From Burkholderiales bacterium 39-55-53 (GTDB lineage Bacteria; Pseudomonadota; Gammaproteobacteria; Burkholderiales; Burkholderiaceae_C), in the NCBI GenBank assembly GCA_002282445.1, contig NCJK01000003.1:1-64000 (forward strand): 64,000 nt of DNA, in the 5' to 3' direction. Made by a program: the position numbers and the translations under genes. Within the stretch, counting starts at the first letter, position 1. Every line of letters starts with the position of its first letter. Shown piece after piece: positions 36,634 to 40,783 of the stretch. The notes beneath the pieces were generated by a model, which worked only from the letters and a program-made list of their open reading frames with translations, had not been told where the DNA came from and searched no databases.

Positions 36634-39414
36634 TCAATGTGCTTTGTCCCAGTTCGGACCCACCCCAACCTCAGCCAACAACGGCACTTTCAGCTGCGCC
36701 ACTTCAGCCATCAGGCGTGGCACTTCAGTGCGGACCCATTCCACTTCTGACTCGGGCACTTCAAACACCAGTTCATCGTGCACTTGCATGATGACTTTGG
36801 TTTGGCGGTGTTGATCGTCAATGGCTTTTTGCACGGCCACCATGCTCATCTTGATGAGGTCGGCGGCTGTGCCTTGCATGGGCGCGTTGATAGCGGCACG
36901 CTCAGCACCAGCGCGGCGTGGGCCGTTGGGACTGTTGATTTCGGACAAATACAAGCGGCGGCCAAACACAGTTTCGACATAGCCTTGTGCTTTGGCTTGT
37001 TCGCGTGTGTCGTCCATGTAGCGCTTCACACCCGCGAAGCGTTCAAAGTAACGGGTGATGTAGTTCTTGGCTGCGCCGTTGTCAATGCCCAGCGCTTTGG
37101 CCAAACCAAACGCGCTCATGCCGTAGATGAGGCCAAAGTTAATGACCTTGGCATAGCGGCGCTGCTCGGTACTGACTGCATCAACACCCACGCCAAACAC
37201 TTCGGCCGCCGTGGCACGGTGCACGTCTAAGCCATCGTGGAAAGCCTTGACTAAAGCCTCGTCACCACTGATGTGCGCCATGATGCGCAACTCGATCTGG
37301 CTGTAGTCGGCACTGGCTATCACGCAGCCCGCAGGGGCCACAAATGCTTCGCGCACTTTGCGCCCCTCTGCCGTGCGAATTGGAATGTTCTGCAAGTTGG
37401 GATCGTTGCTAGACAAGCGGCCCGTCACGGCCACGGCTTGCGCGTAGTGTGTGTGCACGCGACCTGTGCGTGGCACGGCCATTTGCGCGAGTTTGTCGGT
37501 GTAGGTGCCTTTGAGTTTGCTAAGACTTCGGTGCTCCAAAATTTTGGCAGGCAGTGGGTAGTCTTCGGCCAATTTCTCCAGCACTTCTTCGTCGGTGCTA
37601 CGTGCGCCGGTGGCGGTTTTTTTGATAACGGGCAAGCCCAGTTTGTCAAAGAAGATTTCGCCCAGTTGCTTAGGGCTGGCCAAGTTAAATGGCTGGCCTG
37701 CAATTTCATACGCTTCAGTTTCTAGCTGCACGATGCGTTGACCCAGCGCGTGGCTTTGTGCGGCGAGTGTTGGTGCGTCAATCAACACACCGTTTCGCTC
37801 GATGCGATAAAGCGCTTCGCTGCTTTGAATTTCTAGTTCGTAGATGAAGCGCAGTTTGTCGTCGGCTTGCAAACGCGGCCACAGCACTTGGTGTACGTCT
37901 AGCGTCATGTCGGAGTCTTCGCATGAGTATTCGGTGGCACGCGCCACGTCCACTTGCGAGAACGGAATTTGGTGCGCGCCTTTGCCGCACAGGTCTTCGT
38001 AGTTCAAACCTTTGCGGCCCACATGGCGCTCGGCCAAGCTTGCCAGGCCGTGAGGTTTGTGCACTTCCAGCACATAGCTTTCCAGCATGGTGTCGTGCGC
38101 GTAGCCCTTCACCTCAATGCCGTGGTTGGCCATGACATGTCGGTCGTATTTGATGTGTTGGCCAAGTTTCTTGATGTCAGAATTTTCAAACCAAGGCTTG
38201 AGTTTGGCCAGCACTTCATTGATAGGTAGCTGCGTGGGTGCATCACCATAGCTGTGCGCCAGCGGGATGTAGCAGGCCTCGCCGGGCTTGACCGAAAAAC
38301 TCAAACCCACAATCTCGGCGCGCATGGCATCAAGCGATGTGGTCTCGGTGTCAAACGCCACCAGCTCGGCTGCGTTGAGTTTGGCCAGCCATGCATCGAA
38401 CATAGTCCAGTCCAGCACGCAGTCGTAATGCTTGTCGGTCACGGTAGATACCGTGGGCTCGGGTTCGTCAAACAGGCCGGGGTTGGGTTCAAACTTTGGC
38501 TTAGCTTCTGATGCTCCGGCTGAATCACCACCTTCGCTGATGGCGCGGGCCAAACCTTTGAAGCCATAGGTTTCGTAAAAGGTTTTGAGTGCGGGCTTAT
38601 CAGGCTCGGCCAAGTGCAGCGCATCGAGTGCGGGCAAGTTGGGCACGTAGGCCGATAAATCGCAATCGGTTTTCATGGTCACCAGCTGGCGGCCTGTAGG
38701 CAGCCACTCAACGGCTTGACGCAAGTTCTCACCCGCTACGCCTTTGATGGCGCTGGCGTTTTGCAGCAAATTGTCGAGAGAGCCGTATTCCATCAGCCAC
38801 TTGGCAGCAGTCTTTGGGCCCACCTTGGCCACGCCGGGCACGTTGTCAACCGTGTCGCCCACCAAGGTTTGGTAGTCGATCATCAAATTCGGCGGCACGC
38901 CAAACTCGGCGGTCACGCCAGCCACATCGCGTTTTTTGCCGTTCATGGTGTCCATGATGGTGATGTGTTCGTTCACCAACTGGCTCAAATCTTTGTCACC
39001 ACTCGACACCACCACTGTCACGCCTTGCTTGGCAGCGGTCACAGCGAGTGTGGCAATCACGTCGTCAGCCTCTACGCCCGGCACATCCAGCACCGTCCAG
39101 CCCAACATGCGCACCATGGCGTGGATGGGCTCGATTTGCGAGCGCAAGTCATCCGGCATGGGCGAGCGGTTGGCTTTGTAAGCGGGGTACATCTCGTCGC
39201 GGAAGGTGGGGCCTTTGGCGTCAAACACGCAAGCGGCCAACTGGGTGGGCACTTCTTTACGTAGGGCCTGCATCATGTTGATCATGCCGCGGATGGCACC
39301 TGTGGCCGCACTCGTTGGATCGCCTGGCACAGCGCGCAGGTCGGGCATGGCATGGAAGGCGCGGTATAGGTAGCTGGAGCCGTCGACCAGCAGCAATGTT
39401 TTGGATTCACTCAT
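36634..39414 (-). CDS. polA: DNA polymerase I
   Basis: Repair and Okazaki-fragment processing polymerase. The 926-residue protein has all three parts. The 5' nuclease (1 to about 300) begins LLLVDGSSYLYRAFHAMPDL. The 3'-5' exonuclease lies at about 330-510 with the DxE motif in VAFDTETTSLDAMRAEIVGL, so proofreading looks intact. The polymerase domain has motif A ASADYSQIELRIMAHISGD, motif B region RRYAKVINFGLIYGMSAFGLA, and motif C MQVHDELVFEVPE. It is transcribed away from the palindromic element at 39437-39768, which leaves only about 22 bp between that element and its start codon. Confidence 0.98.
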   Translation of the reverse strand: MSESKTLLLVDGSSYLYRAFHAMPDLRAVPGDPTSAATGAIRGMINMMQALRKEVPTQLAACVFDAKGPTFRDEMYPAYKANRSPMPDDLRSQIEPIHAMVRMLGWTVLDVPGVEADDVIATLAVTAAKQGVTVVVSSGDKDLSQLVNEHITIMDTMNGKKRDVAGVTAEFGVPPNLMIDYQTLVGDTVDNVPGVAKVGPKTAAKWLMEYGSLDNLLQNASAIKGVAGENLRQAVEWLPTGRQLVTMKTDCDLSAYVPNLPALDALHLAEPDKPALKTFYETYGFKGLARAISEGGDSAGASEAKPKFEPNPGLFDEPEPTVSTVTDKHYDCVLDWTMFDAWLAKLNAAELVAFDTETTSLDAMRAEIVGLSFSVKPGEACYIPLAHSYGDAPTQLPINEVLAKLKPWFENSDIKKLGQHIKYDRHVMANHGIEVKGYAHDTMLESYVLEVHKPHGLASLAERHVGRKGLNYEDLCGKGAHQIPFSQVDVARATEYSCEDSDMTLDVHQVLWPRLQADDKLRFIYELEIQSSEALYRIERNGVLIDAPTLAAQSHALGQRIVQLETEAYEIAGQPFNLASPKQLGEIFFDKLGLPVIKKTATGARSTDEEVLEKLAEDYPLPAKILEHRSLSKLKGTYTDKLAQMAVPRTGRVHTHYAQAVAVTGRLSSNDPNLQNIPIRTAEGRKVREAFVAPAGCVIASADYSQIELRIMAHISGDEALVKAFHDGLDVHRATAAEVFGVGVDAVSTEQRRYAKVINFGLIYGMSAFGLAKALGIDNGAAKNYITRYFERFAGVKRYMDDTREQAKAQGYVETVFGRRLYLSEINSPNGPRRAGAERAAINAPMQGTAADLIKMSMVAVQKAIDDQHRQTKVIMQVHDELVFEVPESEVEWVRTEVPRLMAEVAQLKVPLLAEVGVGPNWDKAH

Positions 39415-39436
39415 AGGTTGTGATTGTGCCTTGTGT

Positions 39437-39768
39437 GCTTTTTTTGGCTGGGCTCGCTGGACGCGGCTGGTGGGCGTCGCTACTTCATGCTGGTGTACCA
39501 GAAATCATGGCGACGCCCACCAGCCACGACCAGTCTGCGGCCTGCTTTAGTTCATGCCTGCATGCATGGCTCGTGCCTTTGGCACGTTGCCATGCGCAAA
39601 CTAAAGCTGCAACCATGAAACGATGTGGCAATCGCGACAGCGGAGCCACAACCCAGCAGGCCGTAGTCTTGGGGGTTGAGGGATGAGCGGGTGACGATTT
39701 CTGGTACCCCAGCATGAGGAACCCGCTCATCCCTCAGCCCCCAAGCGAGCCCAGCAAAACAAGCCAAA
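39437..39768. repeat. Compound palindromic element between polA and thrB
   Basis: Almost the whole 406-bp gene-free gap is built of nested inverted repeats. Outer ends: GCTGGGCTCGCT (39447-39458) and AGCGAGCCCAGC (39744-39755), with imperfect A/T-rich extensions. Hairpin 1: GGCTGGTGGGCGTCGC (39465-39480) and its complement (39510-39525). Centre: CGGCCTGCT/AGCAGGCCG (39538-39546/39655-39663), GCTTTAGTT/AACTAAAGC (39544-39552/39599-39607) and GCATGGC/GCCATGC (39564-39570/39589-39595). Hairpin 3: a 26-bp stem (39668-39693/39720-39745) with one internal mismatch plus one at its loop end. The loops of hairpins 1 and 3 carry the same 22-base block in inverted orientation (39485-39506; 39696-39717) with one mismatch. 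No protein is credible here. It resembles a REPIN/MITE-like unit; no target-site duplication is obvious. Confidence 0.85.
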
Positions 39769-39820
39769 CTGTCACCAAAGCGCCAACTACAATGTCAAAC
39801 TTTTTAATCCCTTGGCAGTC

Positions 39821-40783
39821 ATGGCAGTTTTTACCGAAGTTTCAGAGTCCTCCGCGCAAGAACTGCTGACCCAACTCAAGCTTGGCGAGTTAGTAGAGCT
39901 CAAAGGCATCCAAGGCGGGATTGAAAACACCAATTACTTCCTCACCAGCAGCACCGGCCAATATGTGCTCACGCTGTTTGAGCGCCTCACGCACGCGCAA
40001 CTGCCGTTTTATCTGTACCTGATGAAACACTTGGCACACGGCGGTATTCCTGTACCAGACCCCATGTCAAACCAAGACGGCGACATCTTGCTCACCGTTG
40101 AAGGCAAGCCTGCTGCGGTGGTCAACCGCTTGCGTGGAAAAAGCGAACTTAGTCCCTCCGCTGCCCACTGCGCCGCTGTGGGCGACATGCTGGCCCGCAT
40201 GCATATTGCTGGGCGCGACTACAACCGCCAACAGCCCAACTTGCGCGGCCTGCCTTGGTGGAACGAGACCGTGCCTGTGGTGCTGCCGTATTTGAATGAA
40301 TCACAAGCCGCACTCATTCAAACAGAGCTGGCCTATCAAAACCACACTGCAGCCTCGTCGGCCTACACCGCCCTGCCCCGTGGCCCTGTGCATGCCGACT
40401 TGTTCCGCGACAACGTGATGTTTGATGGCTCGCCAGAAGCCCCGGAGTTGAGTGGCTTCTTCGACTTTTACTTTGCTGGCGTAGACACTTGGCTGTTTGA
40501 TGTGGCTGTGTGTTTGAACGATTGGTGCATCACGCACGCCGAAGGCACGCACGATGCGGCCAAGGCGCAAGCGTTCATCGACGCATACCAAGCGGTACGC
40601 CCCTTCACACCCGCTGAGCGCCAGCTACTCAACCCCATGCTGCGTGCGGGTGCTTTACGTTTTTGGACTTCGCGCCTGTGGGACTTCTACTTGCCACGCG
40701 AAGCCAGCATGTTGCAACCCCACGACCCCAAACACTTTGAGCGTGTGTTGCGCCAACGTGTGGCACATCCTGTCACACTCTGA
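39821..40783 (+). CDS. thrB: Homoserine kinase (ThrB type II, APH-like fold)
   Basis: Phosphorylates homoserine for threonine synthesis. The 320-residue protein belongs to the aminoglycoside-phosphotransferase-like ThrB of beta- and gammaproteobacteria rather than the GHMP type. It has the N-terminal nucleotide loop GIENTNYFL and the catalytic stretch PRGPVHADLFRDNVMFDG followed by SGFFDFYFAGVDTWLFDVAVCLNDW. The start MAVFTEVS matches the family; a TTG three codons earlier is less likely. A membrane-protein gene follows 3 bases later. Confidence 0.93.
   Translation: MAVFTEVSESSAQELLTQLKLGELVELKGIQGGIENTNYFLTSSTGQYVLTLFERLTHAQLPFYLYLMKHLAHGGIPVPDPMSNQDGDILLTVEGKPAAVVNRLRGKSELSPSAAHCAAVGDMLARMHIAGRDYNRQQPNLRGLPWWNETVPVVLPYLNESQAALIQTELAYQNHTAASSAYTALPRGPVHADLFRDNVMFDGSPEAPELSGFFDFYFAGVDTWLFDVAVCLNDWCITHAEGTHDAAKAQAFIDAYQAVRPFTPAERQLLNPMLRAGALRFWTSRLWDFYLPREASMLQPHDPKHFERVLRQRVAHPVTL

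Follow-up and report, generated by a model that had tools for sequence, protein, structure and literature searches.

A dispersed family of constant-capped, variable-stemmed hairpins in Comamonadaceae-type bacteria, REPIN-like and probably working as folded single-stranded DNA

Among described repeat systems, those closest to the locus treated here are the REPINs, which are inverted doublets of REP sequences linked to RAYT, as presented in the part of Bertels and Rainey 2011 (PMC3116915) drawn on here. In the passages used from a second paper (Di Nocera and colleagues 2013, PMC3733652), a REP is bounded by a GTAG or CGTC foot tag and a stem of about 5-13 bp, and TIRYT genes and TIRtrons are set apart by their GGGGWSAS ends. 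The ends of IS200/IS605 elements are hairpins of single-stranded DNA that are read in loop and bulge (PMC8266576, in the portion used).

The gap between the divergent genes polA and thrB, in a stretch of 64,000 nucleotides from Burkholderiales bacterium 39-55-53 (the whole of which is called the window below), holds an element (Table 1) that an original prediction, made from the letters alone, had described as nested inverted repeats covering nearly every base of the gap and folding into a cloverleaf-like shape. The nesting is real, with arms found throughout: the folding energy of the stretch as single-stranded DNA is -123.7 kcal/mol, whereas 100 shuffles average -60.7 +/- 3.7 and not one does as well (z -17.1), and the predicted minimum-energy structure is indeed a branched one. 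Hairpins 1 and 3 taken singly fold at z about -9, and the central part at z -5.6. The coverage was overstated, since 39447-39755 amounts to 309 of the 406 bases between the genes. The outer inverted repeat is exact over 12 bp, within arms of 26-31 nt at 71-81% identity, and its left flank recurs on other A units in the same genome and in relatives. Inside it lie hairpin 1 (arms 39457-39480 and 39510-39533, 24 nt, 92%, uninterrupted for 16 bp), the central arms (87%) and hairpin 3 (arms 39668-39692 and 39721-39745, 25 nt, 96%). The stems of hairpins 1 and 3 differ, and their tips are one and the same 22-mer in opposite orientation, a cap that matches the window twice and 100 shuffles not at all.

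Table 1. Parts of the polA-thrB element and the genes beside it, in positions of the window.
Feature	Positions	Strand	Basis and remarks
Outer terminal inverted repeat, left	39447..39458	+	Repeat search and reading; outer flank of 'A' hairpin unit
Hairpin 1	39457..39533	- (motif strand)	Arms; fold z -9.05 on minus strand
Constant cap motif GATTTCTGGTACACCAGCATGA, hairpin 1	39485..39506	-	1 mismatch to consensus
Central closing stem, left arm (unit A inner flank)	39532..39546		Inverted-repeat pair
Central multi-step hairpin / spacer	39540..39660		Fold z -5.6
Central closing stem, right arm (unit A inner flank)	39655..39669		Inverted-repeat pair
Hairpin 3	39668..39745	+ (motif strand)	Arms; fold z -9.49 on plus strand
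Constant cap motif GATTTCTGGTACCCCAGCATGA, hairpin 3	39696..39717	+	Exact to consensus
Outer terminal inverted repeat, right	39744..39755	+	Repeat search and reading
polA, divergent neighbour	36634..39414	-	NCBIfam
thrB (homoserine kinase), divergent neighbour	39821..40783	+	NCBIfam; mechanical ORF start 39812, ATG 39821

Plasmid and phage sequences held no match to 39437-39768, and the 25 matches listed by Rfam 15 for 39300-39900, up to E 10 and mostly to microRNA models, all fell short of the gathering score. The element is flanked by two stretches conserved among relatives that, read by eye, look like back-to-back promoters; a promoter scan around it scored nothing. An intrinsic terminator in the window was considered and is unsupported: by eye no T tract follows hairpin 1 or 3 on either strand, and a terminator scan, in which loops over 8 were not scorable, returned two partial sub-stems, where shuffles average 0.6.

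The cap is the constant part of a family whose stems are nearly free. Its consensus is GATTT-[CTGG]-TACY-[CCAG]-YATGA, 22 nt, and among 104 hairpins clustered at 85% the mean pairwise identity is 94% in the cap and 39% in the left arm, while 96% of the stem is paired. An ungapped stem accompanies 217 of 243 distinct motif places, 25-30 bp long in 177, shorter in 4 and longer in 36; the 26 places that fail the ungapped score include some coding-like chance matches and also real hairpins in which the arms are shifted against each other by one or two bases beside the cap, window hairpin 1 being one of them. In 190 of the 217 the cap has CTGG/CCAG as its inner stem. Among the 27 variants, 17 lack one or more of the four Watson-Crick pairs and the 10 that keep all four have changed on both sides, as in GTGG/CCAC, CGGG/CCCG and GCGG/CCGC. 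Beside the cap, tandem A.G/G.A is common in the stem, with 111 of 217 hairpins at position 2 and as many at position 3. The three-branch layout described in the original prediction is not what recurs: the unit is one constant-cap hairpin, which often occurs as an inverted pair. Nor is the central branch conserved: the caps stand 211 bp apart in the window and 130 bp apart at the orthologous polA-thrB site of Limnohabitans Jir61, where the spacer is shorter and largely of different sequence.

Neighbouring units are mostly inverted. Neighbouring caps within 450 bp of each other form 54 pairs, spaced 105-257 bp, of which 47 are minus-plus, 4 plus-plus, 3 minus-minus and none plus-minus, the seven exceptions coming mostly from groups of three; of the 135 hairpins that have enough sequence on either side, 48 stand without a partner in that range. 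In the Polaromonas MAG (G097), which carries 61 copies, 56 caps make up 28 pairs with 153-155 bp between them, and three of the five without a listed partner lie at contig ends. Similarity among these copies mostly stops at the hairpin feet or only a few bases from them, with GTAC marking one end and CG the other, and neither a target-site duplication nor a clean junction was resolved there. In a subset of the same copies (L262-L267, L302-L322) the similarity runs on for 40-90 bp outside the feet, which hints at larger repeated contexts or paralogous sites.

An enzyme of the RAYT type had been proposed as the thing to look for, and the genome of the window does have one Y1_Tnp gene (L024, G000:C1:922298-922636, 235 aa), which passes the Pfam Y1_Tnp cut-off and, at 79.4 bits, narrowly misses the NCBIfam cut-off of 80 for a REP-associated tyrosine transposase. 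It lies between inverted GGGGTCAG repeats that fit GGGGWSAS. On the 3' side of the gene there is a second GGGGACAG repeat, at 49 bp from the first, and an arrangement of this kind is also seen at several of the 28 other Y1 loci examined. The hairpins themselves were not found beside Y1 genes: the cap motif is absent from 29 such loci and from 7 more (in the fetched DNA, about 1.5 kb a side or as far as the contig reaches), and 113 hairpin loci yielded no relative of this genome's Y1 protein. Nor does the gene mark the genomes that have the cap. Y1 genes occur in 23 of 24 genomes with the cap and in 20 of 24 chosen genomes without it, and in the genus sample Y1_Tnp is present in 5 of 5 and 27 of 36, respectively, so that presence of Y1_Tnp was rejected as a marker, being nearly as common without the cap.

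One group of loci does tie the hairpin to such an enzyme. In L066, L092 and L111, A[AT]TGGGGTCAGA[TG]CAACATTAATTT-like repeats stand at a fixed distance on either side of seven hairpins, and the Y1 gene of those genomes is flanked by GGGGTCAGATCAACATTAATTT (in G724 only one side is visible). The seven are those of ten register matches that are bracketed on both sides; three are bracketed on one, and the left flag of L124 is a contig-end artefact. Across intergenic regions the repeat occurs in 11 of 92 with a hairpin and 2 of 152 without (Fisher p 5e-4, in loci chosen for hairpins). In this group the hairpin sits as the centre of a TIRYT REPIN, so a Y1 (TIRYT) enzyme probably moves it there, and for L066, L092 and L111 only, the Y1 (TIRYT) transposase is the first candidate. 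The asymmetric frame of repeat and hairpin (GGTCAATC against CCAATC) is found facing either way with respect to the cap, as though inversion of the hairpin inside it were possible. Repeats of the TIRYT type are absent from the window element, from 11 of 12 hairpin loci in its genome (the twelfth has one) and from the G097 flanks as printed.

We consider it rather probable that the family is a REPIN-like, non-autonomous dispersed element whose ends are capped hairpins acting as folded single-stranded DNA. Both the single-stranded working form and mobility itself are inferred from the features described here; no transposition event was seen in the genomes compared. The ends would be recognised by the shape and sequence of the cap and not by the sequence of the stem, and each strand of a paired element would present one correctly oriented cap near its 3' end. 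A single-strand HUH transposase of the Y1 type could then bind the capped hairpins on an exposed strand, for instance at a replication fork, and copy or move the unit. A more tentative and distinctly less probable proposal is that these hairpins represent a new class of single-stranded DNA end, in which the enzyme reads only the apical internal-loop cap (GATTT / YATGA around the 4-bp inner stem and the TACY tetraloop) while the 25-30 bp stem drifts, leaving copies with stems of their own. The cap would then be modular, working both in paired elements with their own ends and as the centre of a TIRYT REPIN, and what reads it would be a protein not yet described or a Y1 transposase working in a mode not yet described.

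The family is a dispersed repeat of Comamonadaceae-type bacteria (Limnohabitans, Rhodoferax, Polaromonas). The claim that the window holds no second copy stands, apart from the two oppositely oriented cap halves, and further copies occur elsewhere in the genome, where 15 motif places were found at no more than 3 mismatches, against none in a backward control. One of the 15 (L039) is coding-like and stemless, and is presumably hisE coding sequence. Another locus of this genome (L023 around 1500, G000:C7:189467) holds a degenerate copy with altered cap and long stem kept, lying in frame within an open frame of 808 aa that carries the domains DUF3418 and OB_NTP_bind and that we take to encode an HrpA-like helicase; the copy resembles an insertion tolerated in the protein. 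In the genus sample 11 of 41 genomes match, five with hairpins and six only with the stemless stretch of the L039 type. The isolate Limnohabitans sp. Jir61 is rich in copies, with 13 motif places. The family sample yields cap matches at no more than 2 mismatches in 25 of 299 genomes and 14 of 126 genera, counts in which not every stem was checked, and the order sample 4 of 399 genomes, all in the family, with 0 of 385 outside it. At least 113 stretches with the cap pattern came from a scan of named species. Among the 80 matches listed, 78 come from Limnohabitans, Rhodoferax, Polaromonas, Comamonadaceae, Burkholderiaceae, Burkholderiales or beta proteobacterium entries; the two outliers are a stemless stretch in Prevotellaceae (L114) and a real hairpin in a Chitinophaga MAG (L117), taken for contamination or transfer. 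In IMG/VR one contig has an exact 20-mer, without a stem.

Empty sites had been suggested as a check, and they exist. The polA-thrB comparison searched 41 genomes, fetched 30 loci and cut out 22 gaps, of which 20, at about 60-184 bp, lack the element; the two occupied gaps are those of the window's genome (about 406 bp) and of Jir61 (about 341 bp). That of G011 may, by eye, be a deletion scar rather than a clean empty site, and another MAG (L109) has a one-hairpin version. Of the 12 sites in the window's genome, 7 align with and are occupied in at least one other species (one of these comparisons took in hairpin-bearing loci only), and, judged from the alignments, the sites compared are often common by descent, so that activity in this lineage may have ceased. 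Stems at shared sites carry compensated changes, as read by eye. At site E2 (L026 against L141) the stem of hairpin 1 is wholly different between the two species and hairpin 2 is conserved, a pattern suggesting exchange of a whole hairpin between copies, and in L078 the second hairpin of the site is absent. Stem turnover may thus include copy exchange and not point compensation alone, and units can apparently be lost or exchanged singly.

Such persistence is what would be expected if the hairpins were host-selected and not primarily mobile, namely sites of single-stranded DNA or cruciform form for a host or phage protein in replication, priming or chromosome organisation: the motif and its strand polarity have been conserved, and copies are kept at orthologous sites across Limnohabitans species, at one of them with the spacer replaced. 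The patchy presence of the family within its own taxonomic family, and its absence from the genomes sampled in the rest of the order, count against a host function, as do copy numbers among the matching genomes, four of which have 13-61 places each and the other 21 only 1-7. So uneven a distribution looks like bursts, and we regard the host-site explanation as unlikely.

Evidence that the folded form itself is maintained comes from compensation and from the strand on which mismatches fall. The 28 fetched pairs of the Polaromonas MAG give 56 hairpins of two types (one was dropped as too different), and in comparisons of similar hairpins pairing survives 1379 double changes and is lost in 39, while 647 single changes keep it and 261 break it, a pair-breaking share of 261 in 2326 counted changes; the counts run over sequence pairs and are not independent. 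Mismatches in the stem, read on the motif strand at positions 4-22 in 205 hairpins (ten having been dropped by a pairing threshold), are G.T in 276 cases against A.C in 20, and G.A in 94 against C.T in 8. A constraint on double-stranded DNA would give equal numbers, and these are unequal.

Long compensated stems that tolerate G.T are equally typical of RNA helices, and the hairpins could accordingly work in the transcripts of neighbouring genes as terminators or as mRNA-stabilising or regulatory structures. Their setting might permit it: with genes called by a simple codon-score script, which placed polA and thrB of the window as expected, 150 groups fall into 79 codirectional gaps, 32 convergent gaps, 10 divergent gaps, 28 contig edges and one called gene. 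Function in a transcript, however, predicts the bias in sense hairpins only, and in codirectional gaps G.T:A.C stands at 82:4 for sense and 96:4 for antisense motif strands. Both orientations being biased, folded DNA is the better reading. Clustering at 75% leaves 25:3 and 24:1 for the two orientations. Orientation is also independent of transcription, single hairpins in codirectional gaps being sense in 12 cases and antisense in 19 (11 and 16 without three hairpins that have degenerate partners and one double-counted site), and the window element, upstream of both its genes, has neither a T tract by eye nor an Rfam match at gathering score. An RNA function is on these grounds quite unlikely, and selection appears, from the mismatch pattern, to act on folded single-stranded DNA. 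The bias could in part reflect mutation of the exposed strand and not selection; the G.A excess argues against this, weakly after clustering at 75%, where it falls to 7:1 and 9:1 (p 0.07 and 0.02).

A MITE of a conventional DDE insertion sequence, read as double-stranded DNA and with ends that are palindromic by accident, would account for the short outer inverted repeats in the window, for dispersed copies and for pairs of a few hundred bp, too short for a transposase gene. A double-strand reader needs a fixed sequence and gives no reason for polarity, so the nearly free stems and the excess of G.T over A.C on one strand make this very unlikely. That the element is a local palindrome without family or function, as the lack of another copy in the 64 kb window might have suggested, is negligible in probability, chance being ruled out by the fold against shuffles (z -17.1), by copies in its own and other genomes and by family hairpins whose stems are conserved through compensation, just where the original prediction had said that a mere palindrome would diverge at random and have no copies.

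If the preferred account of a dispersed, REPIN-like element with capped ends is right, the family is a natural experiment in which over 200 distinct hairpins have varied the stem and kept the cap, and so display what an enzyme that binds single-stranded DNA must see. The G.T to A.C bias, split by the direction of transcription, is moreover a simple test from sequence alone for telling folded-DNA from folded-RNA elements. A palindromic repeat family is also added to a group of freshwater bacteria, one that literature searches had not turned up: in open-licence papers no description was found of the cap sequence, of palindromic repeats in Limnohabitans or Polaromonas, or of such a family under REPIN/RAYT in Comamonadaceae. 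Matches to the cap in the literature passages returned were to its shortest fragment only and were judged unrelated, and a spaced motif of Polaromonas naphthalenivorans (PMC5217627, in the part drawn on) consists of other sequences than the cap.

Set beside known systems, REP/REPIN is the closest comparison, and the expectation that it would fit without fitting neatly is borne out. Like REPINs, as characterised in the portion of PMC3116915 used, the family consists of inverted pairs, non-coding, mostly intergenic and dispersed, with a foldable spacer, with singlets that are possibly remnants and usually with one Y1 transposase gene per genome. Unlike the REPs of the passages drawn on, which have short stems, its stems are hypervariable at 25-30 bp, its constant part is the cap at the tip and not the foot, the aligned G097 feet have no GTAG or CGTC tag, and the hairpins do not flank the transposase gene (0 of 29 and 0 of 7 Y1 loci). 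The family thus matches REPINs in arrangement and in its likely single-strand mode but departs from them in tag, stem length, position of the constant part and association with the gene, and we call it REPIN-like and not REPIN. The kinship with TIRYT elements is closer in some loci than in others: the GGGGTCAG repeats of the window genome's Y1 gene fit GGGGWSAS and the capped hairpin of some relatives is bracketed by the same repeats, whereas the window element and the G097 flanks as printed have no such bracket, and the TIRYT section of PMC3733652, as far as it was drawn on, leaves the capped hairpin unmentioned. Of MITE features, the outer repeats are present in the window, and no autonomous copy was seen among the Y1 genes sought. 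IS200/IS605 elements have a hairpin at each end, both on the same strand, with tnpA inside, whereas copies of the present family are inverted and its pairs, with caps 105-257 bp apart, are too short for a gene. Integron attC sites are folded single-stranded DNA with little sequence conservation and with conserved paired core boxes at the foot. In IS200/IS605 and TnpA-REP (PMC8266576, in the portion used) an irregular single-stranded hairpin is read strand-specifically, which is the likely mode here as well. With attC the family shares the folded single strand and the scant conservation of sequence, and it differs in where that conservation lies, which in attC is the foot and here is the cap.
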